DNA of 64,000 nt from Asterochloris sp. CNOR1 (taxonomy: Eukaryota > Chlorophyta > Trebouxiophyceae > Trebouxiales > Trebouxiaceae). The stretch covers positions 310,001 to 374,000 of the forward strand of contig OZ017746.1 in NCBI GenBank assembly GCA_963969365.1, written 5' to 3'. Position 1 is the stretch's first letter. Each line of letters opens with the position of its first letter. Below are positions 1 to 64,000 of the stretch, piece after piece. The notes under the pieces are model-generated. The model saw only the letters and a program-made list of their open reading frames with translations, was not told where the DNA came from and ran no database searches. The position numbers and the translations under genes were made by a program.

Positions 1-92
1 AAACTTCCCATCTGACTGCGCCCGCTTCGCACAAGGACGACACCTTCCGCAGGGCCATGCAGTCTTGCAGGCCAGCAAGCCCCTGGGCCCAC

Positions 93-3000
93 CTGACGGA
101 TCTGCTGGATGTTGCAGCCCTGGCGTCCCAGCACGCTGCCCACCTGCACCCCTGACAGCCCCAGCATGGCTGTCACGCTGCCCGGCTGCAGGCCTGCCAT
201 CTGCAGCTGCCGCAGGCAATGCTAAGGCCATGCATCAAGCATCAGGGCAGCACATAGAGCACAGAATGTCTCAGCAGTTGGACATGACTTGCTCCAAGGC
301 AGCCAGGTCGGAAACACTTGCGCTGCCTCAAAAGCAAGAGTGCAATGCTTGCCTGCCCAGGGAGAGGCTGCACAGGCTGCTGCATGGGCTGCTGCATCTG
401 CAGGTCTGGGCTGCCCGCCAGCATGGGCTGACCCAACATGGCTGCCAGTGGGGTGCTGCCCGTCTGAAGGCCCCACATGGGCAGCAGGCTGGGCTGGAGC
501 TGCAACCCCTGCGCCTCAGGTGCCCCCTCTGTTGCTGCAAGGCGGGTTGCCGCACGCACCTGCAGACGCAAGGCTGGCGTTGCTGGCTGCAGTACAAGGG
601 CGGACACATACATTTCGGCGCTGCAGCATGTTGCAGAAACCTATGTCGGTGTCTGTGAGCAGCTTGAGTGAGCATGGGGACAGGCCAAGCATCCACAGCG
701 CACAACAGGAGTCAGCCATGACTTGTGCACTCTCACAATTATCTGGCGCCCTGGAGAGCAGGCTCCCCACCGGCTCTCCACCTTAACGGCAATGTACCAC
801 CCCAAGCAGTGCTCGGCCCACCTGCCACCCCCGCAGCAGGCTTCCAACCTGGCGCACAGCCATCAGGCACTGCATGTGCGTGCCCTCCATCTGCACGACC
901 TGCTCGGCGTCGGCCGGGGCTAGCATGGGCCCGCGATCGGTGCCCCCGAACACGTGCACCTGGCACCCCGTCAGCGCTCGGACCTGGGCCACCACTGTGC
1001 CTCCGTGGCCCAGCACGCAGCCCACCTGCAGGAGATTGAACGCATGAGTTACCTTCCAACAAAAGGCAAGAGGTGGGGAGACAAAGAAAAGGGCAGGACA
1101 CCACCTGCAGGCGCTGGTGTGTGTTGGGCAAGTTCAGCAGCATGTCCGCGCTCAGTGCTCACAACTCTCAGCACAAATTCCAGCTGCAGCGCAGCGGGGT
1201 GCAGGCAGCCGCATCTGTGGGATGAAGCAGTGGGTAGACTGGCAGGTTGCCAAGAGAAAGAGAGTCAATAAGGCTGGAAGTCCAGCACGCAGATGGGTTG
1301 ACCGGCAGCTTTGCAAAAGAAACAGGGTCAATAAGACTGGAAGGCCAGCACGCAGATTAGTAGACAGGCAGCTTGGCAAGAGAAAGAGGGTCAATACCGC
1401 TGGAACTCCAGCACGCAGCCCATCTGCAATGCACGGTTGTGGTCCCAACAGTGGCGACTGTTGGCGCAGCAGTCGCTGTTTGGCATGTGAAATGGAGCGG
1501 ACGCCTCTCATACTGCCCAGATCTACATGCAAAGCTTGCAGTCCCCCTGGACACATGTGTGACATGATGTGCACAGAGCAGACTGCAGCTGGTGCTGGCT
1601 TGCAGCCTCTCCAAAGCCTTGTCATTGCCACTGTCCACTGGCCCGCACGCCACCCTACCTGGTTGGAGGTGACCAGCAGCCGCAGGACCTGCATTTCGGG
1701 TTTGTCTTCCTCATCTGCTGTGTCCCAGGCCAGGGCGGCTGCGCAGCAGCGCAGCAGGGCCTCCTCTGCAGGACTGTAGGCTGTGGCTGGAGGCTCCAGG
1801 CTGGAGATGGCCACCACACGCTCCTCACTGCCTGCAGTAATCCAACGATAAAGGAGTTGTGAGACGAGGGACTGTAGGCTGTGGCAGGAGGCTCCAGGCT
1901 GGGGATGGCCACCACACGCTCCTCCCTGCCTGCCGTGGCTCGAACAAAATGTTGCAGCTTGGCGCAGCGCAGGTCTGGTGAGTGGACTCACTGCCCAAGC
2001 CAGTTCAAGAAGGACCTTGGACTGCTACTGGGCAGTAGATGGCTGCCACCTGTCCTTTGCCTGCACCATGGAGCGCCCTGGTTGCTCACAGTCCGCAGCT
2101 GCATTGCATGCTTCCAGATAGCAGATACTGATGGCGTCATGCAGAGTCCCATATCACATGAGGTGTGCTGAGGGAGATCAAGCACCTTTCTGCTCTGCTC
2201 ACCAATGTACATCCCCTCGTGCCTCACCTTTAGTGCGCTCATGCATCTGCACGGGTGCATCAATTTGCTGCCTGGTCTGCTAGATGACGTCCCCTGGCCA
2301 GCCCTGTGTGCCTCACCATCAGTGCGCTCATGCATCTGCACGGGTGCATCAGTCTGCTGCCTGGTCCGCTTGATGATCACCCCTGGCCAGCCCTGTGTGC
2401 CTCACCGTCAGTGGGCTCATGCATCTTCACGCGCGCATTAGTCTGCTGCCTGATCTGCTTGATGACCTCCCCTGACCGCCCAATCACGCGCCCAGCGTGC
2501 TCCACAGGGACCAGGAGCCTGAAACTGATCAGTACCCCCCCCTGAAGAGGGCGGGAATGTTGTGAAACCCGGGAGGTTCAAAGGGTAGTGCCTGAAAGTA
2601 GTTGATACGCCCCCCTGAAGAGAGCGGCAATGTTGCGAAACTCTCAGGGTCAGAGGGCAGTGCCTGCACGTCTGCCGCCCTGCCACACACAAGGATGCCT
2701 GAAACTGATCAACACGCCCCCCTGAAGAGAGCGGCAACATTGTCAAAACTCTGGAGGGCGTAGGGTAGTGCTTATACCTCGGCTGCCGTGCCATACACAG
2801 GGAGTTGCAGCCCTTGCTGCGCAGCATCACAAAGCGCACCCCAGCACTCTGGGCTGGTGTGTCTCTTGTACTCCATGTTTGAGCGCTCAGAGACTAATAG
2901 CATGCAGCAGCCCTCCAGTGATCTCATACTGAGCTCCACCAGCGAGACGACAAGTGGCACACATATGGTCAGGGCTCGCCTGCTCCATGCCCATCATGTG

Positions 3001-5483
3001 TGGCGGCGCCTGCCCCCTGTAAGGGCCTGTAAGGGGTGGCTGTGAGCGCTGCCGGTCATCCCTGGAGCTGCCTGGATGGGGCGGCGGCAGAGAGCGCAGT
3101 CTGCCATCCCCAGAGGCTGAGGGCGGAGTGGGTGGCCGCCTTGCTGGCGCAAACACTGGCACAGGTGCTGAGTCAGCAGCGCTGCCGGTGGCTGAGGACG
3201 CGGTGAGGGCGATGGTGCGGGGGTGCTGCAGCACCAGACATGCATCATCGATCAGCTCAAGAGACCTGGGAGCCAAGGCAGCTTTCGCAGACGGAGCCAA
3301 GGCAGCTTTCGTGGAGGCGTGCAGTGCATGTGGTGCAGGTGAGTTACAAGCATTACAACCCACCACATGCAGCAGCAAAAGGCTGGATGGCTGCCAGAGG
3401 TTCAGTACACGGGTCATGCACACGGTGCCAGCGCATGAGGGGGCAGACACTGACCAGGAATGGGTGCCTCAGCTTGACCAGTGCAGACCCTGAGAAGGCA
3501 CAGGCTGCCTGACGCAGTGCTGCACAATGCCTGACCTGCAGCACAGGCAGTCAGCACGGCAAATGCCCCTGCCCTGGCCTGGACTGGCATGCAGCTGCAG
3601 TCGTCCCAGCACTGTGAAGGGCTCACCTGTGAGAAGTGGCGTGGCGGGTTGCTCTTCAGCTGGGCAGAGATGTGCTGCAGGGCCATGCGCACCTTGGCTG
3701 GCTCCCCCGTGATCTGCACAGAAGGGTGAGTTTTGGCTCTGTGCAAGAGCGTGCTGGTGCACAAGCTGCAGAGTGCCTGCCAGGGCAGCAGCGTACTCTG
3801 AAGGCAAACGAGTACATTTTCATGCAGCAGCTGGACTCAAAAGGCAGCAGAGTGGCGCCCAACGCAACCACGTGACTCTCAGGGCAGCAGAGTGTCACTC
3901 AAAGCAGCAGCAGCAGTCACATCTCTCGCTGCTCTGGGGGTGACCACCGCAAATGCTTTTCAATGTTACGCCACAACTCTACATGCAGCACACGTGCCTT
4001 CCTGCCAGTCACAGCTAGTGCCTGCACAAGTTTGTTGCAAAGGCTGGCCTACCGGGGCTTCCTGTTTGCTGCTCAGGATGCATCAGCGCCGTTTCTCAGG
4101 CAGAAGAGCTAGTCACAAAGCCAAACCCCACCTGTACGAGCTTGTTGCAGGGCCTGAGCATGGAGGCTTGTTTGTCACTGCTCAGAAATACATCAGCGCC
4201 GGCTCCCACAGAGTGGAGCCGGCAACTATCTCAGAGCCGATACCCACCTGCACGAGCTCATCGCAGGGGCTGGCACACAGTGGTTTTTCATTGCTGCTGA
4301 GGATGCGGATGGATGCCCCTGTGTCCTGGCGCAGCTGGGTGATGATGGTCCCCCCCTTGCCCAGCACGCAGCCGATCTGGCTGCTGTCCACCAGCAGGCG
4401 GGCTGTGATGACCAGGTCTTTCAGGTTGGTGTCCTCAGAGTCGCCCTCGATGATGCGTGAGTGCACGCGGAACAGGGCTTCCTGTGCGGGAGACCACTGC
4501 GTGCTGGCCCTGCACACGGACACAGAGGTGTGGGAGGCAGGTCTGCTCTCTCACACAATCCTGTCAGGGACAAGGGGCTGCTCTGTTCTGGCCTGGCCTG
4601 GCCTGAACAGGTGGGTGCCTAGCATGTGAGTCCAGCACCGCTGTCGAGCGCTCAGTGTTTGGCTGCGATGATGCAGGACAGAGCGCCATGGGCAGGTTGA
4701 TGGAGCTTCCTGGCCCTGAACACTGGTGCATGCTCAGCAGGGCAGCAGCACTAGCAGCTCAAATGAGGTTGATTAAGCGAGATTAGGTGTCCCCTTCATA
4801 CCAGTCAAGCCCAGCCCTCGCCTTTGAGCAGTGTTGCATGCATGAGGCATGCCATCTCTTAGGCTCCACTGCCCCCTCGCCCCTCAGGGTGTCAGCCAAG
4901 GCCGGGGCACACTCTGTCAGGGCAGCATACCTTTCAGGTGCAGAGATGGCCACGATGCGCTCGTCGCAGCGGTCCACCGCCTCCTCTATCTTGATCCTGG
5001 AGCCAGTCTCAGCTCGGAGCTGGCGGATGATGTCGCCACCCTGCAGCACGATGTGACAAGGGGCAGCTGGCAGGCAGGGGATTGAGGGCTGCAGAGCTTT
5101 GAGAGCCTTGGCATGAGCCCAGCGCATTCCCTCGGCAGACTGTGTCCTGGAGGGGCGCTGCAGTGTGGCATCCCAGGACAGCCACAGGCCGCTCCAGGCA
5201 TGAGCTGGTGGCTCTGCCTTGCTGCAGGCAGGGTGTCTGGCTGCCAGTGCTGCCCTGCCGAACCCTGGCAGTGGCGGTGCAGCCATTGCACAATGGCACT
5301 GGGGACTGCTGGAGGTGTCTGCACCTTGCCAATGATGGACCCTGTCCTTGCGCTGGGGCACAGCAGGCGGAACACGACGAGGGGTGGGCCCTCCTCCTTG
5401 CTCCTCTTTGACGACGCCGCCATGTCGCCAAAGCCCCCCTCAGGGCTGTGCCTCTTGCTGCTGGTGCCGCTACCGCCCTGATG
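93..5483 (-). CDS. Multi-KH-domain RNA-binding protein (HEN4/PCBP-like), partial at 3' end
   Basis: I read nine exon segments on the minus strand: 5483-5325, 5040-4931, 4509-4248, 3713-3627, 3225 to about 2955, 2524-2406, 1831-1659, 1025-849 and 185-93. Except around the linker, their phases fit. Together they give five KH domains. The GxxG loops are SIIGK/GGD (KH1, split by an intron), CVLGKGGT (KH2), RVIGRSGE (KH3), CVLGHGGT (KH4) and SVLGRQGC (KH5). KH1 and KH3 end with the usual DERIVAIS / EERVVAIS strand. A Pro/Ser/Arg-rich linker (about 3225-2955) separates KH2 and KH3. Proteins of this kind (plant HEN4 and relatives, animal PCBPs) bind single-stranded C-rich RNA and act in splicing, 3'-end choice or stability. 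The first Met in the 5' exon is at 5423, but that exon stays open to an acceptor at 5483, so an upstream exon may hold the true start. The 3' end lies beyond base 1. Confidence 0.85.
1230..1430. repeat. Threefold ~68-bp tandem repeat in KH-gene intron
   Basis: Three diverged copies of about 68 bp lie in the intron before the KH4 exon. Each carries a 'ggtcaata..gctggaa..ccagcacgcag' core. The last part resembles the plus-strand image of the KH4 exon start (ccagcacgcagcccacctgcag, about 1007-1029), so this may be an acceptor-side exon-edge echo. Confidence 0.7.
1865..1945. repeat. Near-copy of KH3/4 exon start inside upstream intron
   Basis: About 75 bp here closely match 1775-1840, the first part of the exon at 1831-1659, including its acceptor region. 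Only a few substitutions separate them (for example ctcctcactgcctgcag versus ctcctccctgcctgccg). On the minus strand the copy still reads like the exon start but sits in the intron. Confidence 0.8.
2205..2410. repeat. Two ~100-bp tandem copies of the KH3 exon's donor end
   Basis: The KH3 exon ends at 2406 with a gtgagg donor. Two further copies follow, near 2301-2400 and 2205-2300, each repeating the exon end (catgcatctgcac...) with a cctcac donor image. The encoded sequence is still partly recognisable as the KH3 GxxG-to-helix segment. The copies carry frame-breaking changes and look intronic. Confidence 0.8.
2515..2770. repeat. Two copies of the KH3 acceptor-side edge (~75-105 bp)
   Basis: The block beginning cctgaaactgatcag (about 2517) recurs, diverged, near 2590 and 2698. 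Each copy carries a cccccctgaagag..gcgg core and ends in a ..gggtagtg or ..gggcagtg motif. On the minus strand this is the exon start plus the intron 3' end, so the KH3 exon has echo copies on both sides. Confidence 0.8.
4015..4240. repeat. Two ~113-bp echoes of the KH2 exon's donor end
   Basis: The KH2 exon ends at 4248 before a gtgggt donor. Diverged copies of its last ~70 bp plus donor lie near 4125-4200 and 4018-4095. Both keep a 'cctg[ct]ac[ag]ag[ct]tt/c' donor image and a 'gctgctcaggatg'-like body. Spacing is about 112 bp. Confidence 0.75.
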
Positions 5484-5499
5484 CTGCAGGTCAATGGGC

Positions 5500-6202
5500 G
5501 CGCATGAAAGGCTTACAGCCCATCAGCATGGCCAGCATGGTGATGAGCAACACTGTATGGTGTGCCTGCACAGAAGGCCTCCAATGGGAAGGCAAGGCAT
5601 CGAGCGCCCTCCGAGAGCGGCAGTTAGCCAGCAAGTGCCCACCTTGCTGTGAAGGGGACTGCTAGTGGTTGGGAGCCCCAGGAGACGTCCGCTAGGAAGT
5701 GGCTGATTGTTCATCGCCCAACTTCAGACATGCAAGCAGATTGCCTGCTGAGTAGGTCAAACTTTTGCACCTCGTTTTAGGGGCGCATAAAGGGCTGGGG
5801 CCGTGTTCCCAGCCTGTCAAATGTAAGGCGCAGTTGTCGGGGGCCTTCACACTGCTTACTCAGCTGTTGGGGATCCTGGGACTCCCAGGGCCCGAGGCGT
5901 GTCAGCAGGTCAACACATAGACAACACTAAATGTGCCTCCTGCTGTTTGCTGGCTTCAAAGCCAGGGCTCGTACTCTGAACTGTCAAGTTTCACTGATAC
6001 ATCATTTGGTAACACAGACTGATCAGTTACACACCAGAAGCATGACGACTTAATAGTCTCCAAGGGTGTGTGTGCAGCAGCAATCTGCATGCAGGAAACA
6101 CAGCACTGAAACTTGTTGCACATCAAATGCAATATGATTCAGAAACCACCCTGAATGCTTCATGGGACCAGACTCAGTTCTGGATACGCTGATTGACAAT
6201 GG
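5500..6202. other. Region with no recognised gene
   Basis: This stretch separates the 5' end of the KH gene from the 3' end of the small membrane-protein gene, both on the minus strand. I find no convincing exon, family match or repeat here. It presumably holds the KH promoter, perhaps a first KH exon, and the downstream gene's 3' untranslated region. It is less GC-rich than its surroundings from about 5900 to 6200. Confidence 0.5.
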
Positions 6203-7144: not shown

Positions 7145-10100
7145 ATGAACTTCCCCGCGCTGCTGCAGGCAGGGGCCCGTGAATTGCTGCCTCAGCTACA
7201 AGCAGCCAGGCGGCAGCTCTCTGATGGTGAGGGGGGCTTTCCTGGCAGCACAGCAGCCTCACCAAGCAAAGTGTGTGCTGCATGGCGGCATGCCTGCGGT
7301 GCAGGCAAGCTGTTCAGCTGCCACCAGCTCTTCCTGGCGCCATGCAGGGCAAGGCTGGGACTGACCGAGCATCAGTGAACTTCAACAGCCCCTACTGCCC
7401 GGAGCTGGCCCTGACGATGAATCGAGGTGAGGCGTGCCACTAATTCGTGGCTGTCCCTCAGGTCTCAGCCGTGGCGAGCGCTGTCAGGCAGCCACGTGCT
7501 GCTCTTCAAGCTTCTGGCATGATCTGAAGCTTTTGCAAGGCGCTCGGTGCCTGTTCAGCCAGAATGTTGCTGACGATCACGCTGGCTGTCAGCTCAGATG
7601 CACCTGCATGTGGTGCAGGCGCAGCTGTTCCCGACGGCTCAAGGCTGGCAGCCAACTGGCCGGACCTGTTTCCTCGTGAGCTGCCGGCGCCGCTGGATGC
7701 TCTACAGACCTCCTTGCAGGTGGGCGCTGCTCACAAGCAATGACAGGGACAGGGCCCCACATCCCTCCGTGCATTTGGCTGCAGCAGCCGTCTCTAGACA
7801 CTGCCCCCAGGCTGGACAGCAAGACACCCCTTGAACAGCCAGCCAGACGGGTTTCTGCCTCCAGCTGGCTGCAGTATTGCCACATGCACAGCACATGCAG
7901 GGCTCTGCATTGGGGTATGCCAGGCTGTCTCATGGGCAGGGTGCATCAAGCTCACGATAACAGACTTGTGCTGCAGGCCGAGCATCTGCTGAACACAATG
8001 AATCTGGTGCGGCGGGTGGGGCCGTCCGCCCCTCTGTACCCGCAGGGGCAGCGGCGGGTTTGCCCCCCTCGCAGCCCGCAGTACACCTTTGCGCATGCAG
8101 CACCTGGGTGGCACTGCTACGGGGAGAACAAGGTGAGTGCTCTGCTGTGTTGTGGCCCCTAGGCAAGCTGAAGGCGCTGAGAGCTGGGCGCAAATGCTGC
8201 TGTGGCATCCCAACAGACTTGCTGGGAGGCACACCGCACATCTGTTGCGGTGGCACTGCGGGCTCCTGAGCAGACCCCACATGGAGCTGCGCCTCAACAC
8301 AAACGCAGGGCTCAGTGTGCAGGACAGGTGTGGCAGCATGCCTGTCATGACTGCTGCAGTGCTGCTAAACAGCGACTGCTGCTATCCTGTGCAGCCACTC
8401 ATTGGGGGCAGCTGTGCAGAGCTGCATCTTCTGCACAGGGTCTGCCCTTGCTCAAGACTTTGCATTTGTTTTTCTCTCTTTCATGAGCCTGGCGGCTGCT
8501 TGGGGAGCCATCTTCACCTCTGCAGTTTGCAGTGCCATCAGCCTCTGCCCAAGCACTGCATCGGGCTCCTCTGCAGGCATCGACGCCCCCTCCTGGACAC
8601 AAGCACCATCCTTTCTGAATGTTTGGCAGGCCTGTGAGCAAAGCCATTTTTCACCTCTGCAGTCTGCGGCGCATTGCCGAGCTCCTGCGGCTGCATCGTC
8701 CCTTCCATGGGGCTCAGAAGGTGCCCTACAAACCCTAAACCCTAACCTCTACACCATGTGCCTGCAGGGCGTGAACGTGCCAGACGACCTGGCAGGGCAG
8801 TCTGCCCGCCCCAGCACTGCCCCTGGGTGCAGCAGTGCCCCGCCTCCACGCCAGCTCCAGACTCACACCACAGCTGTGCAGACGGAGGCTCCACGGCCGC
8901 GCCAGCGCCCCGCCCGCCGCGCACGGAGCCTGCAGGTGCGTGGTGCAGCACCCCTGAGAGGTGCAGTGCGGTGCGGGGTGTCGCTGCAGCTGCTTCAGTG
9001 TTGGGTCAGAACTCAAATTCAGCAAGCATTGCAGAGAGTTTGCGGTCTGCTGTGCTGAAGCGTGCTGTTAAAAGCCAGCGACTGCTCTGTCAAGCATCAC
9101 TTAATGCCGAAGGCCTGACTGCTGGTGCCTGGCAGCCTATGTGCCAGAATCTTGAATCAACAAGTGCTGGATATAACATTTTCACCTACTTTCTTTGTAC
9201 AGGAATTGCTGCGCACAAGCAAGTGCAAAGCAGGGACCACAGGTGCACTGAGCTTGTGCAGGCTGGCTGCCTTTGCAATGCAGACAGTTGAGACGAATTC
9301 AAGTGCAACAGTGGCCAAGTCAACTGCGCTATGCACCTGTTCACTTCAGGCACTGCGGTGTGGGTGCGCTCTGAGGCTGGCACCTGAAAGCGGCAGCCCT
9401 GCTGCTGAAACCACTGGAGCAGAGCTCACCAGTACTGAGTGCTGCCCCGCACATCGCGCCCAGACTGTGTTATGGCGGGAGAGCTGAACATGCACACTGC
9501 ACCTGCAGACCGGCCTGGCCACTTCTGAAGAGGAGGGTGTCAGCACCTCGGGCCCTGCCGAGAATGGCCAGGTGTCGGAGTGCATGCCGAGCTCAGGGTG
9601 TGAGGAGCCGGTGCAAGGGGACAAGCGCTTCAGGACGTTCAGCATCGCCTGCGGGCCAGGCAGTCCTCGAGCCAGGTTCAACAGCACGGGTCCTGCACAC
9701 CCAGGTACAGACTCTGCTGTGCAGCCCTCTGAAGTGCGCTCAGGCAAACGTGTGCCTGGCACAGCATGAAGCCATGCTCACACCCATATTGTTGAATGAG
9801 CAGCCTGCCTGTAGCACTCCTTGTGCACACTGTGGGCCACGAGCTACCAGAGACTCTCACCGCCAGGTGCAGATGCTTGCTTGGTGCCTCCTCCTTTTGA
9901 GCTTTCTGGCATGGCCATAGGGAGCCTGCAGTCACCCATCTGCTCCAGACCTGCATCTCTCAGCTCACTGACTGGCCCAGCATGAAGCAATGGTTCAAAT
10001 CTATGTTTCCGCTGCAGATGCCCCCTGGGTCCCCCTTGGCTGTCGCTACCTGAACAGGGCAGCTGCAGACAGATGGAGCTGTGACTCTCAGTGACTTCCC

Positions 10101-13100
10101 AAGTGCCGCAGACACTCCCCTTAGGTCGTGGGGTCAAGAGCTTAGGGGGCACCTCCAGGCGTGCTGACCGGCGCGGCATGCAGCATTTCGCTTCCAGCCT
10201 CCCCTCCACTCGCTGCAGATGCCCCCTGGGTGCCCCCTGGTCGCTTCTACCTGGACAAGGCCGCTTCAGACGCCACCAGCCCCCAGCGCAAGCGGGCCCT
10301 GTCCGCAGCCCGCCTGCAGGGGCGCCAGTGGGAGCGCGAGGCTGCTGCGTCACCGCTGCGGAGGGTGCCCAGCCCCTCGCAGGGGCAGGGGGGTGTCAAG
10401 GGCAGCGTGCAGCTGAGGGGCATGGGCTCTGGGTCGCCCCAGCGGCAGTGGGGATTAGACGCCAGCTCCCGGCAGCATCTTGTGTCCAGGTGTGCAGCGC
10501 TACATCTGTCTGATGCTGCCGTCTTGTTACACCAAGCTGCACAGGGTTGGGGGTGCAGGGAAGGCCTGCACAGCTGTTGCTGTTGGCATGCTGCCAGTTT
10601 GTCAAGCTTTGCTGCACAGAGTTGTGGGGGCAAACAACGCTTCCACAGCGGCTGGCTCTGGCTGCAGTTGGCCCGCAGTAGTGTCAGCAGATTCTTGAGC
10701 ACGTGTGCAGCATGCTCTCCTGCCAATGTATGACAGTCAGCCAACAGCATGCACAGCCTGCAGATTGCGTGCACTGCTGTCTGCAGGAGAGGGGTGCGCC
10801 CCAGCAGAGGCACCGGCAGCGCAGACTTCGAGGCCGACTCTGCAGCAGAGCAGGAAGAACCAGAGGCAGCATGGGCCGGCCAGGAGGGGCTGTCGCTGGA
10901 TCAGCGCTTCACGCAGCAGGCAGCTGCCAGCGCAGCAGCAGCCCAGGCAGGCAGGCTGAGGCTGCGCCCGCAGCGCTGGATCCGGCTGCCCCAGGGCGGA
11001 GCGCGTAGTAAAACCCTGGAAGGGTCTGGCATGGAGGGGGTGCGCTGGGCCACTGCCAGGCGGCCTGCCATGCGGCGCAGGCTGGTGGCTGGCTCGCAGG
11101 ACTGGCAGGTGGCCCCCACAAAGGTAGAACCTGCTCAGCATGCTCTTCTCTGCCATCATAGCAGTTTTGTAGCCGATGTCAGGCAGAGCATGGCACGCAC
11201 AATCATGTGCGGTCTGCAGGTTTTGTCGTACATCAGCCAGGTGCTGCAGTGTCGCTCTGCTGCAAGCGCGTAAGTGTCTCTGCAGGGGTCTCCTTCGACT
11301 GTGCGCCCTCAGGCTGGCCAGCGCAGCTCTACCCAAGAGCAGGCACGAGCCACCATGCTTGACGTGCCTGAGCCAGCAGCTCAGCAGGCCGCAAAAGCGC
11401 TTGGCCAGCAAGAGGCTACTGCTGCCTCACCGGCCAGCGATGCTGTAGCTCCGCCTGTCGAGGAGCCGTCATTCAGCTCAGCGCCGCAGGAAGCTGCCCA
11501 ACTTCCAGCCCAGATGGGGCACATGACCCCCAGCGGCAGCCACCCTCACAGGCAAGCAGGCGGCAGCACGATTGTTGTGGACCCTGCTGCCTTTCGCAGG
11601 GGCCAGGTGCAGCAGCATCGCCAGCAGCAGCGCAGCCAGGCGGCCGCCAGGCCCACTGTGGTGCTGGTGCCCCCGAGCCCTGAATCAGATAGGGACTATC
11701 GGGGCAGGTCTCCTTCAAACTCCCCAGAGCTGGCGGATGAGGCAGTTTCAGAGGAGGACCTGTCCTTTGCAGAGCATACTTTGCAGGAGGGTACTGGTGC
11801 GTCCCAGCAGCATTGGCAGGCAGGGGGTACACAGAAGGAGGGTGGTGCTGCAGCCCAGCAGCGCCCGCACCTGCCGCGCGGCGAGGTGCAGCCCTCAGGC
11901 GCCAGCAGTGCAGGACTCAGCAGGCCGGTCAGCCTGCGGGCTTCCCCAGTGCGCCAGCTGTGTCCAGAGTCCCCCAGCATGCAGCACTTTGGGGCCTCCT
12001 CCGCCAGCAGCAGTCCGGCCAGGCTGCCGCCAGCCCACCGCGGCCGGGAGGGTGCTCAGTCGCAGGGGCCTGCTGCCAGCAGCAGGCCTGGCAGGCACCC
12101 AGCGGCACATCGCAGTAGGGGGGCTGCTCGCGGGGGGTCCACGCTGCCACCCAGCCGCAGCCCCCAGCGCCTCACAGCCGAGGACTCCACAGACTCCCTG
12201 GCAGAGCTGGAGCGCCTCATTGAGGAGCAGCACCGCCAGGCAAGCTCCCTTGGGGGCACAGTCCTGCCAGGCATATTATCATGGGGCCATGTGCCTGAGC
12301 AAATATTCTGCCTCTCATCCTGCCCCAGCTCCTTATCAGGGAGCAGCGCTGCCTAGGCTGTCTTGACAGACATGCCATCACTTGTCAGCAGCAAAGGGAC
12401 TTACACACCTGTCATCAGGCAGACAAGAGGCACAGCATGCCATGTGGCGGGCACAGATCTGTTGCAAAGGTGCCATACAGACATCTCCCTTAGGCAGGCG
12501 TCTCATGGGTGAACAAGGCAGGAAGCAAGCATGTGGCTGTGGAAGCCTCTTCAATGCCTCCCTGGTGTCAGTTACCCAGCCCCTGCAATCGGCAGCCACC
12601 CATGTCCCTGAGCTCAACTGTGTTCTCAGTCTCCCTGCCGCTGGTGGCCACTCATGCCTTGAGCCTCACCTGCGTCCCTGTTGACCCTGCAGCTGGTGGC
12701 CAAGGGCGTCTTACCAGCAGAGCCCATACTGCCCACCGACGTGGACCTTTCAGACCTGTCCCTGCGCGAGGTCTCCATGGACAGCAGCCTGGCCCACATC
12801 GAGCACCTGGCGGGGCACCTGCGGGGGGGTCGCCGCCACCCCCGCAGCGTGCGGGCACCTGCTGAGGTCCTTGGGGACGACTTGCTGCGTGAGGTGAGAC
12901 TATGAGGAAGGGTAGTGAGGCTGCTGAGTGCAACTGTGAGGCAGTGCAGTGGAGGAGCTGGGGAGTGACCTGCTGAGCGAGGTGGGACAGTTACTGGTCA
13001 GCTGGGGACGCCCTGCTGCGTGAGGTGATCGTCTGATGTGTGATGCTGGTGGCTTGTTGCAATCCTGAGGCTGTGCAGGGGACTGAGAGGGCTGCCGCTA

Positions 13101-15691: not shown

Positions 15692-16106
15692 CTTGAGATG
15701 CAATATCTCTGCACCGGAGCTCATCAGCTGTACCAGCCTGCAAAGTACCTTGGCCCCTGAGGCGAGCTCTGCTGCCATTGCAGGACCCGGCAGCTTCCAT
15801 GCTGGCACGGACACAGAGGATGGGCATGCCACAGATGCCCCTCAGTCAAGCAGCTGGCACCCAGACGACCACCGCATCGGCACAAGACCAGTGGACATTT
15901 GATCCTCTGAGTAGTGTTGGGTGACGTTTGACTGCTTCAGGCACAGCTCCGTACACACCCTGTTTTGCCCTTCTGCCAGAGACCAAGCATAATGTTCCCC
16001 AAATACAAGTTACATCCAAAGCTACATTCTGTCAATACAGTGGGAGAAATAGGCTCTTTAATAGCGGCAGAGCTTGCTGCAGCCCTGACCATACAAATCT
16101 AATATG
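15692..16106. other. Gene-poor stretch with a possible alternative last exon
   Basis: A frame at 15785-15902 after a ttgcag acceptor would encode GPGSFHAGTDTEDG... and stop at 15902. It could be an alternative last exon of the plus-strand gene, but its phase cannot be settled. The rest shows nothing recognisable. Confidence 0.3.
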
Positions 16107-16345
16107 TCGGCAAAAATTGAGATGTTGGCTGACACCATGCTCAATATCGAGGGTGTGACCTGTAGCGGTTTTGCAAGGTATGGGCTGGTCCACTGGTGCA
16201 TGCTCACCAAGTCTCTTGCTGGTTCATCTTTAGGCATTTGCTGTTCCATATGGGCTCCGTGCATGGGCTGGTTCTCAGGCTAGATTGCTTGATACAGGTC
16301 CTGCTGCAGAGCGAGACTGAATCCTTGCAGTGATATCCACACTGA
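16107..16345 (+). pseudogene. Decayed 5' fragment of the VTC1-like gene (exon 1, intron 1, exon 2)
   Basis: This block aligns with 18030-18244 of the intact VTC1-like gene. An ATG (16107) opens a 25-codon exon-1 counterpart ending at a gcaag|gtatgg donor, against gcaag|gtatga in the gene. The intron copy keeps ctggtcc..ctggtgcatgctcacca and the gctagatt block. The exon-2 copy starts after an ..acag acceptor with GTCCTGCTGCAGAGCGAGAC, where the gene has GTCCCGCTGCGAATTGAGCC, but it reaches TGA within a dozen codons and has lost the RIEPKSFF motif. The rest of the gene is absent. The fragment lies 1.9 kb upstream of its parent on the same strand, with another gene in between. Confidence 0.7.
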
Positions 16346-17876: not shown

Positions 17877-18029
17877 ATCCAGAGACACGCCAAGGTCCAA
17901 ATACGGCTATTGCTGCTTGTCTGTACGATTCACAACTGAGGCCCCTGATCTCCCTAGCCCTAACTGGAAGAAAGAAAGTGTTTGAAGGAGCGGAAGAGGT
18001 TCCTGCACTCACTGCCCTGGAGGTTCATC
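17877..18029. promoter_or_regulatory. Putative bidirectional promoter, 153 bp
   Basis: Only 153 bp separate the start codons of the minus-strand unknown gene and the plus-strand VTC1-like gene, so any promoter and both 5' leaders must fit here. The spacer contains a telomere-like cctagccctaact (about 17955). No TATA box is obvious. Confidence 0.5.
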
Positions 18030-32942: not shown

Positions 32943-32974
<32 letters not shown>

Positions 32975-53900: not shown

Positions 53901-56900
53901 TGGCGCCAGGCAAGAATCAAGCCTGAGCAACCTCCAGAGTCTCAGCCGGTCATCAGATCTACAGCTTGGCAAACATCTCATTGAGACCCTACCTGCCCCT
54001 CCGCCTGCAGGTCATTGCGGCGCTAGCAGACAACCAGGGCCCAGGCTTGAACAACCTGCACATACCATACCGCGACAGCAAGCTGACCAAGCTGCTCATG
54101 GACTCCCTGGGGGGCAATGCCCTGGCGCTCATGATCGCCTGCTGCTCGCCCTCCTCCCAGGCTGTGGAGGAGACGCTGTCAACTGTGTCTTATGCGACGA
54201 GGGCTAAAAACATCCGCAACAAGCCCATGGTGGCGGTGAGTGGCTGCAACTTGACCCCAGCGCACAGTGAGGTAGAGGGGGTCAACTTCTGCTGAGAGGA
54301 AGTCAATGTAGAAAGGTGGTGGCTGATTTTGCTGCATGTGGGGTTATCAGCGCACTTCGCACTGTTTTGAGGGCAATTGTAGGGGTGACAGCGAGCTGTA
54401 TACTACTGTCCGCTGTGTTCCAGGCAATGAGGGCAGAATGCACTTCATTAGAAGCAAATTGAGCGACAAGGCCCCCTGTGCCTGTGCCTGTGCTGAAGAG
54501 GCTGTCAAACCTAGCCTCTGCCTCATCCTGGGATCATCTGCTGATGGTGCGGTGCCGGTGCAGGAGATGCAGCTGAGCTGGGTGTGCGCAGGTCGCCTCG
54601 TGTCTTGCCAACGCACCTGCTCTGAAATGCTGCACATATTGGCAGATCTGCCCTGCGGCCACAGATGCAGTGCATGCGCTGTAAGGACATATAGACAAGC
54701 ACCAGCGCCGATCTGCACAGCAGCGCACCTGCCACAGAGCCAGCTGCACATGTGAGCTTCACAGGCCACTCCTGCTACCCTTGCAGATGGACCCACAGGA
54801 GGCGCAGATTGCAGCGCTGAAAAGGGAGGTCTTCCTGTTGCGGCAGGAGAACTCCTACCTCAGGGATCAGGTGGGGGCCCCTGCCTTATGCCAATTGGTT
54901 AGCCTCACCTCAATCTTGCTGTCGAGCAGGGATGAGGCCCTCACGACAGCGTCTCTGCCCGGGCAGCTTTGCCATGTATGGCAAGTCGTCCTGCTGTCCA
55001 TGCTGTGGCAGGCAGCGCACCACACAGTCTTGCAGAGTGCCACTGCTCCCCAGAGCTTGACAAGGGCTGCAGCTGAGCTGACGCGCCTGCATGTGCTGAG
55101 GGGCTTTCAGGCTGATTGCCCTCTGCTGTGAGGGCACAAGCACACGTCTACCTTCTGCTGCAGATGATGCCCTGTGAGGCCACAAGCTCCCCTCTCCCTT
55201 CTGCTGCAGATGATGCCAGGAGCCCAGCTACCCAGCGGCATGACGACGCCCCTGCACAGCCGCTTGAGTCGGCCGGCGTCGTCAGACCTGGCCTCTGGTG
55301 GCAGCGCCGGGGCACCGGGTGGGCACCAGCCTGCCCCGCTCATCCCCTGTGCACTCTGCTGTGTGGACACCACCTTGACGGCATGCAGTTGGCTGCCAAA
55401 GTTCTGCCGTTAGCCATGTCCTGCTGCCTGCCATGTGTAGCTGCTGCTGCTGTTGTAGCTGCATGTGTGGCTGCCGTCGCCCATTCAGCCCCCTCAAGAG
55501 ATGAGCATGCGCTCAAGAGTGCAGGCCGAAACCGCGCCTTTCGGCAGACACAGCTGTTTGGCATGGCATAACCAGCACTCGAAGCAGAAGCTCTGATTTG
55601 CAGCAGGATGCCCTGCAGGGGGGCATGGGCGGCCAGACTTCCATGCCATGCTAGGCAGCAAGGGGGGACACGGGGAGGGCACGCCTGGGTCGCCAGGCTC
55701 GCCCTCTGGCAGCGGCACAACCAATACACTTGTTGTGTCCAGGTGGGGCCTGCAGCACTTGATACAGCATCATGGGCGGGTATCTGCTGGGTGCCATGAT
55801 GAGATAGAATAAGTCTGGGTGCTTTGACACAGCAGTGTTTTCATGCAACTGACTAAGGTGGGGCCTCTGCAGCCCAGGTCATGCCTGCATGCCTTGTGTG
55901 CTCTGAACTCCCAGCAGGCTTGCCTTCTGGCAGAAACACAACCAACACGCCCATTGTTTCAGGTTGGCACAAGCCGTGCCTGCCATGTGAGGTGCCAGCA
56001 CATTTGCTGACCACAGAACGCCTTGTGAGTTGGGCAAGTCAACTCCCCTCTCAAAGGGCACCTGAGACCATGGTTGCCAGGAATGGGCCTTGAGGCTTGA
56101 AGACAAGGAGTGGAGCCTGGCTAGCCTTCAGGCTGCGCTGCCATGATCATGACGGCACTGCCCAGCACTGGCTGCACTGAGTGTGAGGGTCTGACTTGTG
56201 TCTTCCCGCAGCAGCTGTCTCAACGCTTGCTGCAAGAGCTCACGACCGTGCTTGGGCCAGCCCCTGTGCTGTCTGCCCACCAGCAGCTCATGTGCGCTCA
56301 ATACAGCTTGCAGGTAGCAGAGAAAGCAATGCTGGCACGGCAGCCGATGCTGCCCCAGAGCCTGACGCGGCTGCCTGCCTGTTGCATTGCTTGCTTCTGT
56401 CGTTGTGAGTGGCTCACTTGTGATGCCACTTCTGAGGCTGATGCTCAAGGCACACTCTACAAGTGCTTGACGTGTATTGGCGCTGAGCCTGATAACATGG
56501 AGTGGCGTGCAGAGCATCTCTGCTTGCCACTGGCTGCTCTCTGTCAGAGAGCCAGAGTTCTTGACCTGGACTCAACAGCATCCTCACCCCTCTGAGGCAG
56601 CAGCGTGCGCCAGACCAGACCCTAGGCTCCCTTGTGTTCCTTGAACAGAGAGTCTCCTTCTGCCCCTGTCCTGCAGGTCAAGTCGTGATCTGGAGGCATC
56701 AGTCTCCTCCCCCGCAGATGCTGCATCTCCATCAGGCTCCCAGTCCTCCCCGGGGCAGGCGCCTGTGCCTGTCAGCACAGCAGAGCTGCAGGGCCTGCCG
56801 CCCGCCGAGCTGGCGCGGCGGCTGAATGAGAGCCAGCAGATGGTGGCACGCTTTAGCCGTGAGAATGAGCGCCTGGCCCAGCATGCGGAGCAGCTGCGAG

Positions 56901-58105
56901 GGTCCAAGCAGGTGGTAGCGAACGACTACAAGGGTAAGCAGCAGGCCAAGAGCATGTGGGCATGCTTTGCCATGCAAGGTCAGCTGCGGGCCATCAAGCA
57001 GGTGGTTGCCAATTATTTTGACAGTGAGGAGCGGGTTAAGGGAGCATGGGCATGCTGTGCATGCCCAATCCGCTGCAAGAGTTAAGCAGCTGATGTCCAG
57101 CAACTATGGTGAGACTGAAGATGTGTTGGGCTCAAGCCCTGCCCGGCATGCATCAGATGTTGCCATTCAGATTGCTGGTGGCAAATTATTGAACAGTGAG
57201 GCGCAAGTGTGGTGGTGCCCTGGTGAGGGTAACGAAGCTGGTCCTGATAGAGATGAATGTCAATGCTGCACTGCAAGCACAAGAGGAGATAAATGTGCGC
57301 CATGGCTGCCTGCTGCACAATCGCCTGTTGTCCTGGCAGTGTGCTGCTGGTCCTCTTGATTGCAGCATGTCTGCGCTCAAGGCTGCTGACATCTGTTGCT
57401 GCCTTTCAAAAGCGTGACTTGAAGCATTGGCTTTGAAGATTGAAGGAAGTCCTGGAGCTCTGCGGAGATGCTTCCAATGCTGGAGGGCTCTGCAGCTTTT
57501 TGAGGCATGCAGCAGCTCACTACAAAAAGCTTTTTTGTCTCCAGGGGCTTTGGATGAAGTGGACTGGCTGCGCACCAAGCTGGAGTCCTTGGAAACCAGC
57601 ATTGCAGTCATGGCGAAGAATGCGGGCAGCCCTGCACCTGCAGAGCGCCAGCCTGAGGGGCCTGACAGGGGGCAGAGGTATGCCTGCCATGCTCTGCTTG
57701 CTGCCAGCTTGCCTGCAGCAGTGCCTCCCTGCCTGGCTGCTGCCCCGCTCGCCTGCAGGGTCTGCTTGCCTGCTGCTGAGATTGCCAGCAGATTCCTGCA
57801 GGTCTGCCTGAGACTTACATGTACACATCCATTTTACTGCAGCACCACTTGATGTCTCACTGCGCTCGGCAAGGCATACCGACAGAGTGAGCCCCTGGTG
57901 CTGCAGTGACATCAAGAGCGCGCTTCACAAGCTACTTAGGACAATGAGTGATGAGGATGAGCCAGCTGGCAAGGATCAGCTCATTGCTGCCAGCCTTGCA
58001 CAAGGCCAACAAGACTGGGACACCCAGCCAGAGGCGCCTGCAGCAGTGCAGCCCAGACAAGCCAGCCGTCAATCTGTAAGACCAGAGAGTCAGGAGGCAT
58101 TCTGA
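47969..58105 (+). CDS. Kinesin motor protein, KIF12/kinesin-12-like
   Basis: Exons: 47969-48215, 49092-49190, 49976-50160, 50460-50555, 51076-51310, 51732-51822, 52012-52081, 52625-52705, 53165-53425, 54011-54235, 54787-54870, 55210 to about 55318, about 56682-56933, 57545-57677 and 57907-58105. All phases fit except 55318/56682, where an exon is probably missing. A Met/Gln/Pro-rich N-terminal extension precedes the motor: [11 protein letters not shown]-loop [23 protein letters not shown], switch I LESSRSH, switch [34 protein letters not shown]. The neck [20 protein letters not shown] is a coiled coil. The VRW...GFHVPEL insert and the neck resemble KIF12. Further coiled coils ([16 protein letters not shown]..., [14 protein letters not shown]) make it a dimeric microtubule motor. 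The first intron has a GC donor (CAG|gcaagc, 48216). The introns are the richest in echoes in the window. Confidence 0.9.
48590..49090. repeat. ~160-bp tandem array ending at a kinesin acceptor, three-plus units
   Basis: ggcacatgcact recurs at about 48616, 48781 and 48938. Each unit carries ..ctggcaccagtgcag..ttgcag..gtc, and the last grades into the ctgctgcag acceptor of the exon at 49092. Confidence 0.8.
49650..49975. repeat. Three acceptor-edge echoes before a kinesin exon
   Basis: The real exon starts ctgctgcag|ggtctgctttaaagccc (49976). Copies begin at 49717 (ctgcag|gatctgccttgaagccc), 49853 (ctgcag|ggcccatgctgaagctt) and 49916 (ctgcag|atgccttccctcagccc). The 49717 copy stays in frame for 18 codons, then hits TAG. 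Confidence 0.85.
50940..51000. repeat. Acceptor-edge echo before the P-loop exon
   Basis: ctgcag|gtgacatttgcaagccc (50954) mimics ctgcag|gtgatggtgccgggccc (51076). Both continue with aa[ag]gggc/gtccctgat, 122 bp apart. Confidence 0.75.
52870..53164. repeat. Three echoes of the switch-I exon start
   Basis: Copies of cag|gtgatcagccgcggcatg (real start 53165) begin at 52879 (cag|gtggtcatcaggggcatg), 52961 (cag|ggtatcagccgcagcatg) and 53072 (cag|gggatcaaccgcggcagt). Spacing is 82, 111 and 93 bp. Confidence 0.9.
53770..54005. repeat. Two echoes of the exon start at 54011
   Basis: cctgcag|gtcaatgcggtgctggc (53888) mirrors cctgcag|gtcattgcggcgctagc (54011). A weaker copy begins near 53782. Each is followed at a similar distance by a cttgaacaacctgcaca-like string. 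Confidence 0.8.
55150..55209. repeat. 46-bp acceptor echo
   Basis: ccttctgctgcagatgatgcc occurs at 55151 and again at 55197 (the real exon starts at 55210). Either AG could be used, and the downstream one keeps the open frame. Confidence 0.85.
56934..57200. repeat. Three-step ladder of donor-edge echoes, 85-90-bp spacing
   Basis: After the exon end at 56933 (agcaggtggtagcgaacgac...|gtaagc), copies of its last ~45 bp end at donors 57023, 57108 and 57195 (gtgagg, gtgaga, gtgagg). Between the first two, 'agcatggg[ca]atgc' spacers are shared as well. Confidence 0.9.
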
Positions 58106-60551: not shown

Positions 60552-60646
60552 GATGCCAGGCCAGGTGATATGCGATTCCCCTTCTGTCTTCCCACCAGAC
60601 TGGTCAACAGATTGGATTTCTCTACACAGTGCTCGCGAGGGTGAAA
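60552..60646. promoter_or_regulatory. Putative 95-bp bidirectional promoter
   Basis: Only 95 bp separate the ATG of the cyclase gene (minus) and the ATG of the CDCA7-like gene (plus). Both leaders and any shared promoter must fit in this space or overlap the coding starts. Confidence 0.55.
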
Positions 60647-63600
60647 ATGGCATCCTCCCAGCTGCCCGACATGCAGGCCGAAGCTGCAACAGTGAAGACT
60701 GCGCCAGGTGCGGTTTCCTGCCAGGGATTGTTCAGATCTATGATCCCTCAGTGCAATCAAGGCTCAGATCACATGCCTGTGCAGCTCAGTTGCCCTTGAT
60801 CCAGCATGCAAGCTCTTATCAGCCTGCTGCAGCCAAGGAGACAGAGGCAGCCAAGGAGAGGAAGAGGCGCAACAACAACCCTGGCGTGCGAGTGCAGGGC
60901 GGCCGTATCTACTGCAGCGAGACAGGGACGACCTGCCATCAGGTGGCCCACTCCATTCCAGCGAAGCAGTGCAGGTTGCTCAAGTGATGTCTCAAGCTTC
61001 CACAGAGTTCACTGCAGTCTACAGTGCTTTGCGAAATTCATTGCAATTGAGTCACAGCCTGGGTGTGATTCCTGAGAGACTATACTTTCACTGTTGCAGT
61101 GCCGCCAGAAGACGGTGGAGACCAAGCACAAATGCACCAAGTGCACTGTGCAGTATTGTCTCAAGTGCCTCGCCAACCGCTACGGAGCAGAGGAGGAGAA
61201 GAAGGTCAGCTGTCTGGCACAAAATCCAGTCCAGCTTCACATCTTGATGCTTGTACAGATGTCTTGGCGCCCCCTCGCGCTGCTCAGACCATGCCCTTAA
61301 ACTGGAGCATGGCCATATCGGCAGCAAAGCTCAACAGACTCCCCACTTGCCCTGAGGTGCATTCTGGGACTGGAGAGCAGTGCTGCTGCCAGTGGGGTAC
61401 CCCTATCTGTGCAGTGCTGACGTGCAGGCGGCAGAGGAGGGCTGGAAGTGCCCCAAGTGTCAGGGCACCTGCAGCTGCAGCTACTGCCGAAAGGTGAGCA
61501 CCTGCAGTGCTGCGAGGCCGCCTGCAGTCCTGAATTGTGCAGGGAGCATGGCGGCCTCCGCTAGCACCAGATTAGCAACCTGATTTGGTGTAGCCCTGCA
61601 TGGATAATTGACTGGCCCCCGCAAAGCAGCTTGCCTGTGCTGCAGGGTCAGGCACTGGCGCTGCAGGCGGCCCATTGCAGCTGTCTCTGAAAGGGCGATC
61701 GAACCCAGATTGCATGCCAGGTGCAGCTCGCCTTGCATGAGCCCAAGCGCTGCCTGAGCTGGCTGCAGAGAGCTGGCCTGGCCCCCACCGGCATCCTCAC
61801 ACATTCAGCTAAGACACTGGGATATGCCTCCGTGGCAAACCTGCTGGCAGTCAACCCTGACGCGGTGCACCATGCCCAGAAGGAGCAGGAGCATGCACAG
61901 TTGGACGGCACCACTGGGCCAGCCAAGAAGAAGCGCAAGCCAAAAGCCAAGAAGGAGGAGGGAGATGCTGCCACCAGCGGGGCTGAGGCAGGCACTGTCG
62001 ACCAAGTCATCCTCGCAGGTCAGCTTGCAAGGGGCAGGACTTGGGCTGGGGGTGCGCGTAGGCAGGCCGAGTCAAAGCAGGGGAAGCGGTGCTAGCCAGA
62101 CCAAGCCTGCCATAGGTGGCACTGAGCCTGCGGGTGAACCTCTGAAGGATCAGGAACCCATTCAGAAGACTTGCATCAGCCACTGGGCGTGGCCTCTCTG
62201 ATCTGGTAGCTCAACTGGAATGGTACATCTGCATGAGGCATGATTGTTCACAGAGCACTGCTGAATGGTCGCCCAAATGGAGGTTTTGGAAGGTGTCGCC
62301 TCACTGCCACAGGGGAGGCAGACAGAGCTCAGGCTGGGGAGCAGGACGGCGCTGACAATGAGGGGGAGCAGGAGCTGTTTGATGTGGAGACGCTACCCAG
62401 ACCACGGCCGCTGCCAGTGAGTTGCACCAGGCAGCTCTGAGGCTGGTGGTCGCCAATGGTGACGGACCTGCTGCACTCAAGGCAGCAAGATGCAGTGAGA
62501 GCTGACAGAGGGCGACGGCAGCGCCAAAGAGGATGTCTTCAGTAAGGACTGTATGGCTTGATTGTAGGAGCTATTGAAAGTGAAGACCCTGCCCACGCCG
62601 TCCAAGTGATTGTACAGGACAGTGCTGAGGTTGGTGCGGGCCGATTGCGTCTAGTCTGCAGATTTCAGCAGACTACAACTTGCTGCATGCAGCACGTGTA
62701 AAGGGAAGCTACCAGCCATGCGTCCAACATCTGTGCCACAGATTGTGCTTTGTCTGGCAGATCGACTAAGCAGACCATCAAGGTCATTGCTGCTGTTTCT
62801 TCCTTCAGGATTTGCACCGAACAGACACCTTTTCCAGCTGCAGGCAGCCAAGACAGGCTTGAAGCTTTACAACCACGCAGCCGCATAGGTTCTGAGTCTG
62901 TGGGTGCAGGGGTCTATGCGGCTAAGCACCAACCTTTGGTCCAAATATGGGCCGGTCCATGCACACGTGATGTTTAGCCCTGCTTGAACTGTGCTGCTGA
63001 ACCCTTGTGCTGCAGGGCAGCCGAGGCTGAGCTGAAAATGTGCATGCTCACAGGCATCCTGACACGCCTTGCTGAGAAAGCTGCGGGCCTACCAGCCTGG
63101 CCACCCTGCTTACTGTTTGTTGCTGGGCTTCTCTGCTGCAGGTAGCAAAGACGGAGCTGAAGCTGTGCAAGCCCTCGGGCATTTTAAAGCGCCTGGCTGG
63201 GGCAACATGGCCCACCAGCATGGGCAGCGAGCTGGCCGTGCCCCGCGACTGCCCTGTCGGGGAGCTGCTGGAGGTGTTAGAGTTCACGCAGGTAACGGTC
63301 GTGCAATGACCTGGTCAAAGGGTGGCTGAACGCAAAGATGTCTGCTCGTGCCTGTGAGAACCCTCTCTGAGCCATCTCCTGCTTCAGCTTTGGCTCCAGG
63401 GGTCAGTATCAAGGGTGGCACCACATGTTTGACAGCCAGGGAGAGGATGATTCTGCTTAGCACCTAAACCCACTACAGTGATTGGAGGGGCTCCTGAAAA
63501 TGGCAGCACAAGATGGCCTGCATAATTGTCCGCCACCAGCTCTCGCGCACCAGGGCCAAGTGCTCAGTGGCCCTGGTAGTACTGATAGGTCTGCCTCAAG

Positions 63601-63791
63601 AGCCTGTGCCTAACCCTAACCCTGAACCCATGCAGGAGTTTGGGGAGCTGCTAGACCTGGGGCCCATGCATGTCCGCACGCTGGCGGCCGAGCTGATGCA
63701 GCCCCCAGCCGCCCGCCTGAGGAGCGCCTTTGGCAGCTCGGGCCCCGTCGTGCAGCTGCACACCGCCCTGATGGACCTGGTGGGCCCATAG
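60647..63791 (+). CDS. CDCA7-like zinc-finger protein (zf-4CXXC_R1) with DDT-like C-terminus, 333 aa
   Basis: Eight exons join in phase: 60647-60707, 60833-60942, 61100-61204, 61428-61493, 61769-62018, 62313-62416, 63142-63291 and 63636-63791. A basic stretch and GVRVQGGRIYC lead into the signature cysteine-rich domain: TCHQCRQKT, HKCTKCTVQYCLKCLANRYG, WKCPKCQGTCSCSYCRK, then GLAPTGILTHSAKTLGYASVANLL. This is the zf-4CXXC_R1 domain of CDCA7, which in vertebrates binds hemimethylated DNA and recruits the remodeller HELLS (DDM1 in plants) to maintain DNA methylation; human mutations cause ICF syndrome. A KKKRKPKAKK nuclear signal and an acidic linker follow. The C-terminal ~100 residues (VGELLEVLEFTQEFGELLDL...VVQLHTALMDLV) resemble the DDT-like region of plant CDCA7-type proteins. 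So this is probably a full-length plant-type CDCA7. Confidence 0.9.
62835..63141. repeat. Two acceptor-edge echoes in the CDCA7-like gene
   Basis: The exon starting at 63142 (ctgcag|gtagcaaagacggagctgaa) is mimicked at 62844 (ctgcag|gcagccaagacaggcttgaa) and 63016 (ctgcag|ggcagccgaggctgagctga). Spacing is 172 and 126 bp. Confidence 0.85.
63611..63629 (+). repeat. Telomere-like tract just upstream of the last CDCA7 acceptor
   Basis: taaccctaaccctgaaccc lies 7-25 nt before the exon start at 63636 and supplies two CTAAC branch-like sites. Here the unit is the 6-nt CCCTAA form. Confidence 0.8.
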
Positions 63792-64000
63792 CAGAAGCAG
63801 GACTCCCGCACCTTCAGCCCATATGGCAGCTTGCCTCCACCACATGTCCACTTTTGAGTCTCCCTGACACGGTATCGTGCGGCTGTGGATATACCTGCTG
63901 GACCTGGAAGGGCTGCAATAGCCTGCACACCTACGACTTTGAGCTCACTATATACCACTTACACCAGGGGGACTCAAGCAGCTGATCACAACATAATGTG
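63792..64000. other. 3' flank of the CDCA7-like gene
   Basis: No exon or gene start could be supported between the stop codon at 63789-63791 and the end of the window. Confidence 0.5.

Follow-up and report, generated by a model that had tools for sequence, protein, structure and literature searches.

Copies of exon edges inside adjacent introns of Asterochloris and the local direct duplications that may produce them

Why should an intron carry copies of the edge of the exon beside it? The question is raised by a stretch of 64,000 nucleotides from the alga Asterochloris sp. CNOR1 (contig OZ017746.1, positions 310,001 to 374,000 of the forward strand; C1:310001-374000 in our numbering), here called the window. 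A sequence-only reading of the window had cited 19 exon edges that appeared to be repeated, together with their splice sites, in the adjacent intron, and had proposed recurrent tandem duplication across exon-intron junctions as the cause. Here, these copies, called echoes below, are tested against controls in the window and in stretches sampled from the rest of the genome.

The genome assembly comprises 56.38 Mb in 21 contigs, 18 of which are about 2 to 4.5 Mb long. The Asterochloris genome paper gives 56 Mb, a GC content mostly of 56-62% and 9 introns per gene (PMC6652019). Exon edges were taken from a purpose-written gene finder, trained on the window and 18 sampled 10-kb stretches (244 kb), for which it produced 67 genes, 485 exons and 418 introns. 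The gene models are ab initio. The program converged on a strong splice consensus, CAG/GTGAG at donors and CTGCAG/G at acceptors, where the slash marks the junction. In the sampled genome the acceptor is very strong, with T at -5, G at -4 and C at -3 each present in 95-98% of cases, and its hexamer is palindromic. Five further stretches outside the training set were held out, and bring the total to 294 kb.

Exon-edge copies and their frequency

All 19 cited edges have copies in the adjacent intron. Each query was also placed 200 times at sites more than 5 kb away, and in every case the best copy scored above all 200 distant placements; the weakest is the edge at 30279 (15.5, with a distant maximum of 13.0). 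Eight genes contain these edges; the number of models is nine, because one kinesin gene was modelled as two halves. Of the 19 coordinates given, 15 equal gene-finder exon edges, while 34411 (modelled at 34368), 45178, 53165 and 56933 differ. For these four, the search target was a fixed 600-bp stretch. The alternative edge 34368 also passed the distant-placement test (30.0 vs 18.5). Edge 45178 is one of two identical copies; the other, 45383, failed the test (10.0 vs 16.0), a result to be expected with an identical partner on its other side. At 53165, which the gene finder missed, and at 56933, for which it chose 56978, orthologue models support the coordinates of the sequence-only reading over the gene-finder model.

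The reading had suggested aligning exon edges with their introns, and on the sampled genome this gives own-intron matches far above all controls. In the window and the 18 stretches, exon-end 50-mers match their own intron at a score of at least 18 for 25 of 296 donors and 24 of 299 acceptors. The corresponding counts for donors and acceptors are 1/2960 and 2/2990 in shuffled introns, 0/2950 and 0/2980 in introns of other genes, 0/262 and 0/265 in sampled non-adjacent introns of the same gene, and 0/296 and 0/299 for reverse-complemented 50-mers. Among the introns tested, the copies are thus confined to the adjacent one. Mid-exon 50-mers, taken 60-110 bp inside the exon, match in 2/205 cases on the donor side and 1/218 on the acceptor side.

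Introns were considered eligible if at least 150 bp long, with flanking exons of at least 50 bp and exon scores above 8; an echo was again a match scoring at least 18. There are 284 eligible introns in the 294 kb, and in 70 of them a copy of one of the intron's own exon edges was recognised, compared with 1/2830 in a swapped-intron control. The copies are spread over the sampled genome, being found in 19/71 introns in the window, 40/176 in the training stretches and 11/37 in the held-out set, and 34 of the 56 genes having an eligible intron contain at least one. Echo-bearing introns have a median length of 496.5 bp, compared with 344.5 bp.

It could be argued that the copies merely reflect chance, low-complexity sequence or misplaced exons, and the ab initio models do contain errors. 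This can be judged from a 19-exon model at 18975-28160, whose protein matches gamma-tubulin complex component 2 (GCP2) among solved structures. Its single relative at E<=0.001 is a eukprot protein from jgi/Astpho2, presumably the portal for Asterochloris sp. Cgr/DA1pho (A. glomerata), and the two are near-identical over their common exons. Compared with the Astpho2 protein, our model has one extra 26-residue exon and lacks 47 residues near 20740-20862; a stretch of 148 residues inside a long exon of our model is skipped in the Astpho2 model. However, the shuffled, swapped, reverse-complement and distant controls are all near zero, and echo-bearing exons have above-average scores (median 28.6 vs 19.4). 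An artefact is therefore scarcely credible, and chance or composition is ruled out by the shuffles, swapped introns, reverse complements and distant offsets. The observation that introns carry copies of their exon edges is confirmed.

Local direct duplication and the exon-intron junction

The repeats are not tied to splice sites alone, as had been supposed. At a score of at least 20, there are 202 direct pairs at offsets of 25-500 bp in the 244 kb, compared with 8 in the whole 2000-6000 range, and local dinucleotide shuffles gave no direct pairs at this score. The five further stretches add 36 direct pairs at 25-500 bp. Short-range inverted pairs number 1 in 294 kb. The duplications are thus local and direct. 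Most of them, though not all, lie within gene models, some being wholly intronic or between genes; the share of bases lying in such pairs is 10.1% for introns, 8.1% for exons and 6.3% for intergenic DNA. The pairs group into 153 loci, about two thirds of which are spaced, with unrelated sequence between the copies, and the term tandem is not confirmed for most of them. In spaced loci of at least 80% identity, copies measure about 29-65 bp and spacers about 30-285 bp (10th-90th percentile).

We hypothesise, as the probable explanation, that these are recurrent small direct duplications made by staggered-break repair and filtered by selection, which lengthen existing introns and leave decoys that decay. 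Local duplications, from tens of base pairs up to a few hundred and almost always direct, would be frequent in genes. The source would be a staggered-end break that is filled in and rejoined, at times with filler DNA between the copies. A duplication within an exon would usually be removed by selection, and one within an intron or across a single junction would be tolerated, in the latter case because splicing continues from the original edge. A junction-spanning event would then add to the length of the intron already present, and the decoy of exon edge and splice site that it leaves would later decay. Selection would freeze the exon copy, so that it stays recognisable for longer, which may partly explain why the copies appear centred on splice sites.

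The strength of this centring was measured in two ways. In the first, pairs were put back at random in genes and tolerated arrangements alone were kept. This used 103 of the 153 loci, leaving out 22 that reach outside multi-exon genes, 17 exon-exon loci and 11 of other arrangements (50 in all). Loci spanning or touching one junction make up 68 of the 103, with 33.3 expected, and in the held-out stretches 13 of all 17 loci lie at junctions, with 4.8 expected. An earlier, simple re-placement of 129 loci had given 53 single-junction loci vs 33.5, and a stricter one on the 244 kb 53/84 vs a null fraction of 0.31 (20/32 vs 0.40 at a score of at least 35); the size of the excess is judged here from the 103-locus test and from the second approach, which uses matched 50-bp windows and no pair calling. 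Junction-centred windows match in 57/436 cases and mid-intron windows in 31/436, a ratio of 1.8-fold with a bootstrap 95% range of 1.25-2.95. By our reasoning, a ratio of about 1 would be expected without targeting, because windows match twice for an intron pair and once for an exon pair, and the survival gain of a frozen copy is at most twofold. The mid-intron rate depends on sampling (29/654; 31/436 in matched introns; 471/7661 when tiled). By the window test the junction excess is modest, and it is not fully explained.

Several results weigh against our hypothesis of break repair followed by decay. Only 48 of the 153 loci are head-to-tail. The spaced loci carry nearly all of the junction excess (54/70 vs 20.3 expected), and by our reasoning this is more than the survival gain of a frozen exon copy could provide. 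Beyond spaced copies with one exonic side, leftover similarity exceeds the null 95% level in 3 of 71 cases; in other spaced pairs it is weak (5/30). A simple tandem model with a decayed intron part is not supported, since similarity past the one-exonic copies falls to background. Recognisable intron parts, present in 25/86 echoes, are no commoner in less diverged echoes (8/23, 5/21, 1/14 and 4/9 in exon-divergence classes from most to least diverged), and where both parts are aligned (48 pairs) exon and intron columns are equally diverged, at identities of 0.780 and 0.776. Neither the equal divergence nor the intron-part pattern shows the exon part simply decaying more slowly. The original proposal therefore stands in part: the duplications are recurrent, local and direct, span junctions and go with longer introns, but they are mostly spaced, and the centring on splice sites holds for spaced loci and not for head-to-tail ones, which show no junction preference over random placement (14/33 vs 12.8).

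The excess of spaced loci speaks for another reading, in which the duplication would be aimed at junctions, with a process linked to splicing, transcription or exon-intron chromatin copying the edge and its splice site a short distance into the adjacent intron. Other results that favour this are the counts for spaced loci of at least 80% identity with an exon edge (18/21 vs 4.4 expected), the held-out stretches and the earlier stricter run on 244 kb. In addition, the intron-ward ends of exon-bearing copies cluster 0-14 bp past the junction (donor 34 vs 11.0, acceptor 31 vs 11.2; this covers the full 238 pairs, contiguous ones included, and arrays enter more than once). Against it, the matched window test gives no more than its 1.8-fold ratio, and head-to-tail pairs have no preference. 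Furthermore, intronic splice look-alikes that are not echoes form no hotspot: acceptor-like and donor-like windows are duplicated at rates of 0.052 and 0.050, about as often as weak (0.049) and intermediate (0.034) ones. The splice motif is thus not supported as a breakage hotspot, and does not look like the cause of the junction excess. Junction-aimed copying is in our view rather unlikely. The same doubt applies to its fuller form, in which the junctions of Trebouxiales would be hotspots where a splicing- or transcription-linked process copies 30-90 bp to a place about 65-370 bp into the intron, and introns would consist largely of worn edge copies.

Spaced direct repeats flanking an unrelated insert also resemble a target-site duplication, such as might be made by mobile introner-like elements that duplicate the exon edge on insertion. 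However, three tested spacers each have one genome location and match only themselves, among them the 118-bp spacer of 22626..22854, and a piece of the 2219-2481 array matches itself and its neighbouring copy. The whole-genome matching skips common words and covered these four intronic queries; each was found at its own place or next to it, and the dispersal of near-identical introns to many genes that is typical of introners was not seen among them. The duplicated stretches are 26-93 bp in sampled pairs, far longer than the 3-9 bp described for some introners (PMC9860276). We consider such elements a very improbable source.

Fate of the copies and comparison with known systems

The decoy splice sites had been described as unused, and they do appear to be so. 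An exon-only echo search covered 663 junctions and gave 89 matches at a score of at least 16, of which the 57 reaching the junction were used. With the position predicted from the exon part, donor decoys retain GT in 7/31 cases and acceptor decoys retain AG in 15/26; by our own estimate, two unselected bases should survive in about 0.6 of cases at the exon-part identity of 0.78. The consensus columns have identities of 0.58 (donor) and 0.74 (acceptor). Judged by these figures, acceptor decoys seem to decay about like an unselected copy and donor decoys at least as fast, although small gaps may have shifted the register of some donor decoys, or the copy may stop short of the site.

In protein models, the original edges are joined in both genes checked. 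In the Astpho2 GCP2 protein, the exon at 22800 is followed immediately by that at 22017. The kinesin was compared with models from three Trebouxia strains, Myrmecia and Apatococcus, which are gap-free across 51076 in 3/5, 53165 in 4/5, 54011 in 4/5 and 55210 in 3/5; at 49976 the orthologues are too divergent for the edge to be judged, and 5/5 are gapped. The decoy donor 56978 adds 15 residues that are absent from all five models. The exon copy is truly coding, since its third codon positions are more diverged (identity 0.740) than first (0.790) and second (0.796) positions.

These results bear on the idea that the copies are functional decoys or alternative exons maintained by selection. It has in its favour that, in pairs required to span the junction, consensus columns are 0.894 identical, compared with 0.78 elsewhere. 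However, this figure came from the requirement itself, and the gap is removed by exon-only detection, on which ground selection maintaining decoys was rejected. Nor do the copies, by their GT and AG counts, retain working splice sites as tandem or alternative exons do, and their offsets have no multiple-of-3 bias (remainders 0, 1 and 2 occur 27, 30 and 29 times). A function under selection is therefore improbable.

In the kinesin model of Trebouxia sp. C0004 (P0004) the exon end is found twice, at residues 357 and 396, with 14/17 residues alike, and in the other four models once. The second copy lies in the stretch inserted at the 53165 gap. It is probably an intronic echo annotated as coding, which hints that the same process is at work in Trebouxia.

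Are the copies footprints of intron gain? In this case a tandem duplication or a staggered-break insertion would repeat the exon end at the far end of a new intron. The donor and acceptor consensus have CAG/G in common, and tandem genomic duplication at AGGT has been described as a route to new introns (PMC3443670); like the duplications here, it involves tandem duplication and splice sites based on AG/G. New introns of Daphnia have exon-end repeats at the opposite end (PMC4202315). The Asterochloris copies, however, are found close to their own edge within existing introns (median position 0.24 of the intron) and abut the opposite splice site in 1 of 69 cases. The AGGT model mentioned in the sequence-only reading thus does not describe them, and intron gain is highly unlikely to be their origin.

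Daphnia nevertheless provides a close parallel. Direct repeats were found by that paper's test in 55/90 new introns and 100/617 established ones, and the authors propose that repeats from staggered breaks lengthen new introns, with a passive trend to longer introns (PMC4202315). There, as here, direct repeats occur inside introns along with exon-end repeats, and repeat-bearing introns as such are therefore not new. In Daphnia, however, the exon-end repeats are 4-12 bp long and at the opposite end of young introns, whereas here the copies are tens of base pairs long and lie near their own edge. Small tandem duplications are also described at breaks with 3' overhangs, or staggered breaks (PMC8355091); these are small and direct and need no starting repeat, as here, but most Asterochloris loci are spaced.

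A search of titles and abstracts in the open-licence literature turned up no account of comparable exon-edge copies, of copies at such density or of spaced copies concentrated at edges. Gene-internal duplication is a further comparison. Gao and Lynch in 2009 reportedly found internal gene duplication in 8-17% of genes. It resembles the present case in being local, intragenic and often inclusive of exon-intron borders. It differs in frequency, although detection differs and its figures are only roughly comparable with our proportion of genes having an exon-edge copy, and in outcome, which in Asterochloris is longer introns and not new ones. The kind of event is thus known, and its density here is apparently high. 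The word 'tandem' is absent from the main text of the Asterochloris genome paper (PMC6652019).

Features of the window and their significance

The individual features are collected in Table 1. Within the ladder at 30279, the tiny model exons 30361-30371 and 30662-30680 are probably false. The exact duplication at 45098-45509 would be either very recent or an assembly artefact. The first gene model in the table looks KH-domain-like by eye.

Table 1. Exon-edge copies and a contrasting array in the window.
Feature	Coordinates	Strand	Details
Acceptor edge 1831 (1771-1838), gene model G0	1771..1936	-	Copy 1869-1936; 94% identity, 30-bp unrelated spacer
Donor edge 2406	2210..2477	-	Head-to-tail array, 89-bp unit, 3 copies
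Donor edge 4248	4021..4295	-	Decayed copy, 110-bp offset, 67%
Acceptor edge 10219	9953..10271	+	Copy ~196 bp upstream
Donor edge 12893	12872..13082	+	Copy 131 bp downstream
Acceptor edge 22017, GCP2	21972..22263	-	Copies 22142-22236 and 22203-22263
Donor edge 22800, same intron as 22017	22626..22854	-	Copy 22626-22681, 118-bp spacer
Donor edge 29442	29350..29736	+	Multi-copy array, 152-bp offset
Donor edge 30279	30245..30687	+	Followed by ladder of decayed copies, offsets 42-220
Acceptor edge 34368 (gene finder) or 34411 (sequence-only reading)	34344..34474	-	Copy 34433-34474, 88%
Donor edge 42746	42437..42746	-	Copy 42437-42477
Acceptor edge 45178 or 45383	45098..45509	-	Exact 205-bp tandem duplication including the edge; 100% over 207 bp
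Acceptor edge 49976, kinesin	49627..50018	+	Several upstream copies
Acceptor edge 51076, kinesin	50945..51107	+	Copy 50945-50997
Acceptor edge 53165, kinesin	52951..53202	+	Copy 52951-52998
Acceptor edge 54011, kinesin	53836..54060	+	Copy 125 bp upstream
Acceptor edge 55210, kinesin	55126..55217	+	46-bp tandem unit
Donor edge 56933, kinesin	56856..57099	+	Decayed copies, look-alike donor 56978
Acceptor edge 63142	62978..63233	+	Copy ~126 bp upstream
Contrast: intron-only tandem array	1231..1418	-	63-bp unit, 3 copies, no exon edge

Some other repeats are worth adding. A between-gene array at 48563-49035 (about 164-bp spacing, 69% identity) is the same sort of local duplication, free of exons. 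The segments 16063-16326 and 17989-18239 are related (67.7 and 73.1% identical) and lie 1.9 kb apart, outside the local-pair pattern. Next to one of the exons predicted for gene model G9 is a simple TG repeat of 30.5 units (32940-33000). Scanning the window for Rfam families and tRNAs gave no matches. Elsewhere in the assembly, contig C20 (110,056 bp) is near the size of the 110,932-bp algal mitochondrial genome given in the genome paper (PMC6652019).

The echoes have practical consequences, since they mislead gene finders, as seen from the choice of the decoy donor 56978 and from the apparent translated echo in the predicted Trebouxia kinesin. Duplication debris also supplies strong look-alike splice sites: echoes account for 0.118 of the intronic windows with strong pseudo-acceptors and 0.116 of those with strong pseudo-donors, compared with 0.038 of weak and 0.044 of intermediate windows, which is about a threefold enrichment. 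More generally, the origin of intron sequence is an open question, and in 70 of the 284 eligible introns a source, the neighbouring exon edge, is still visible. The coding copy provides a reference for the dating and the direction of each event.

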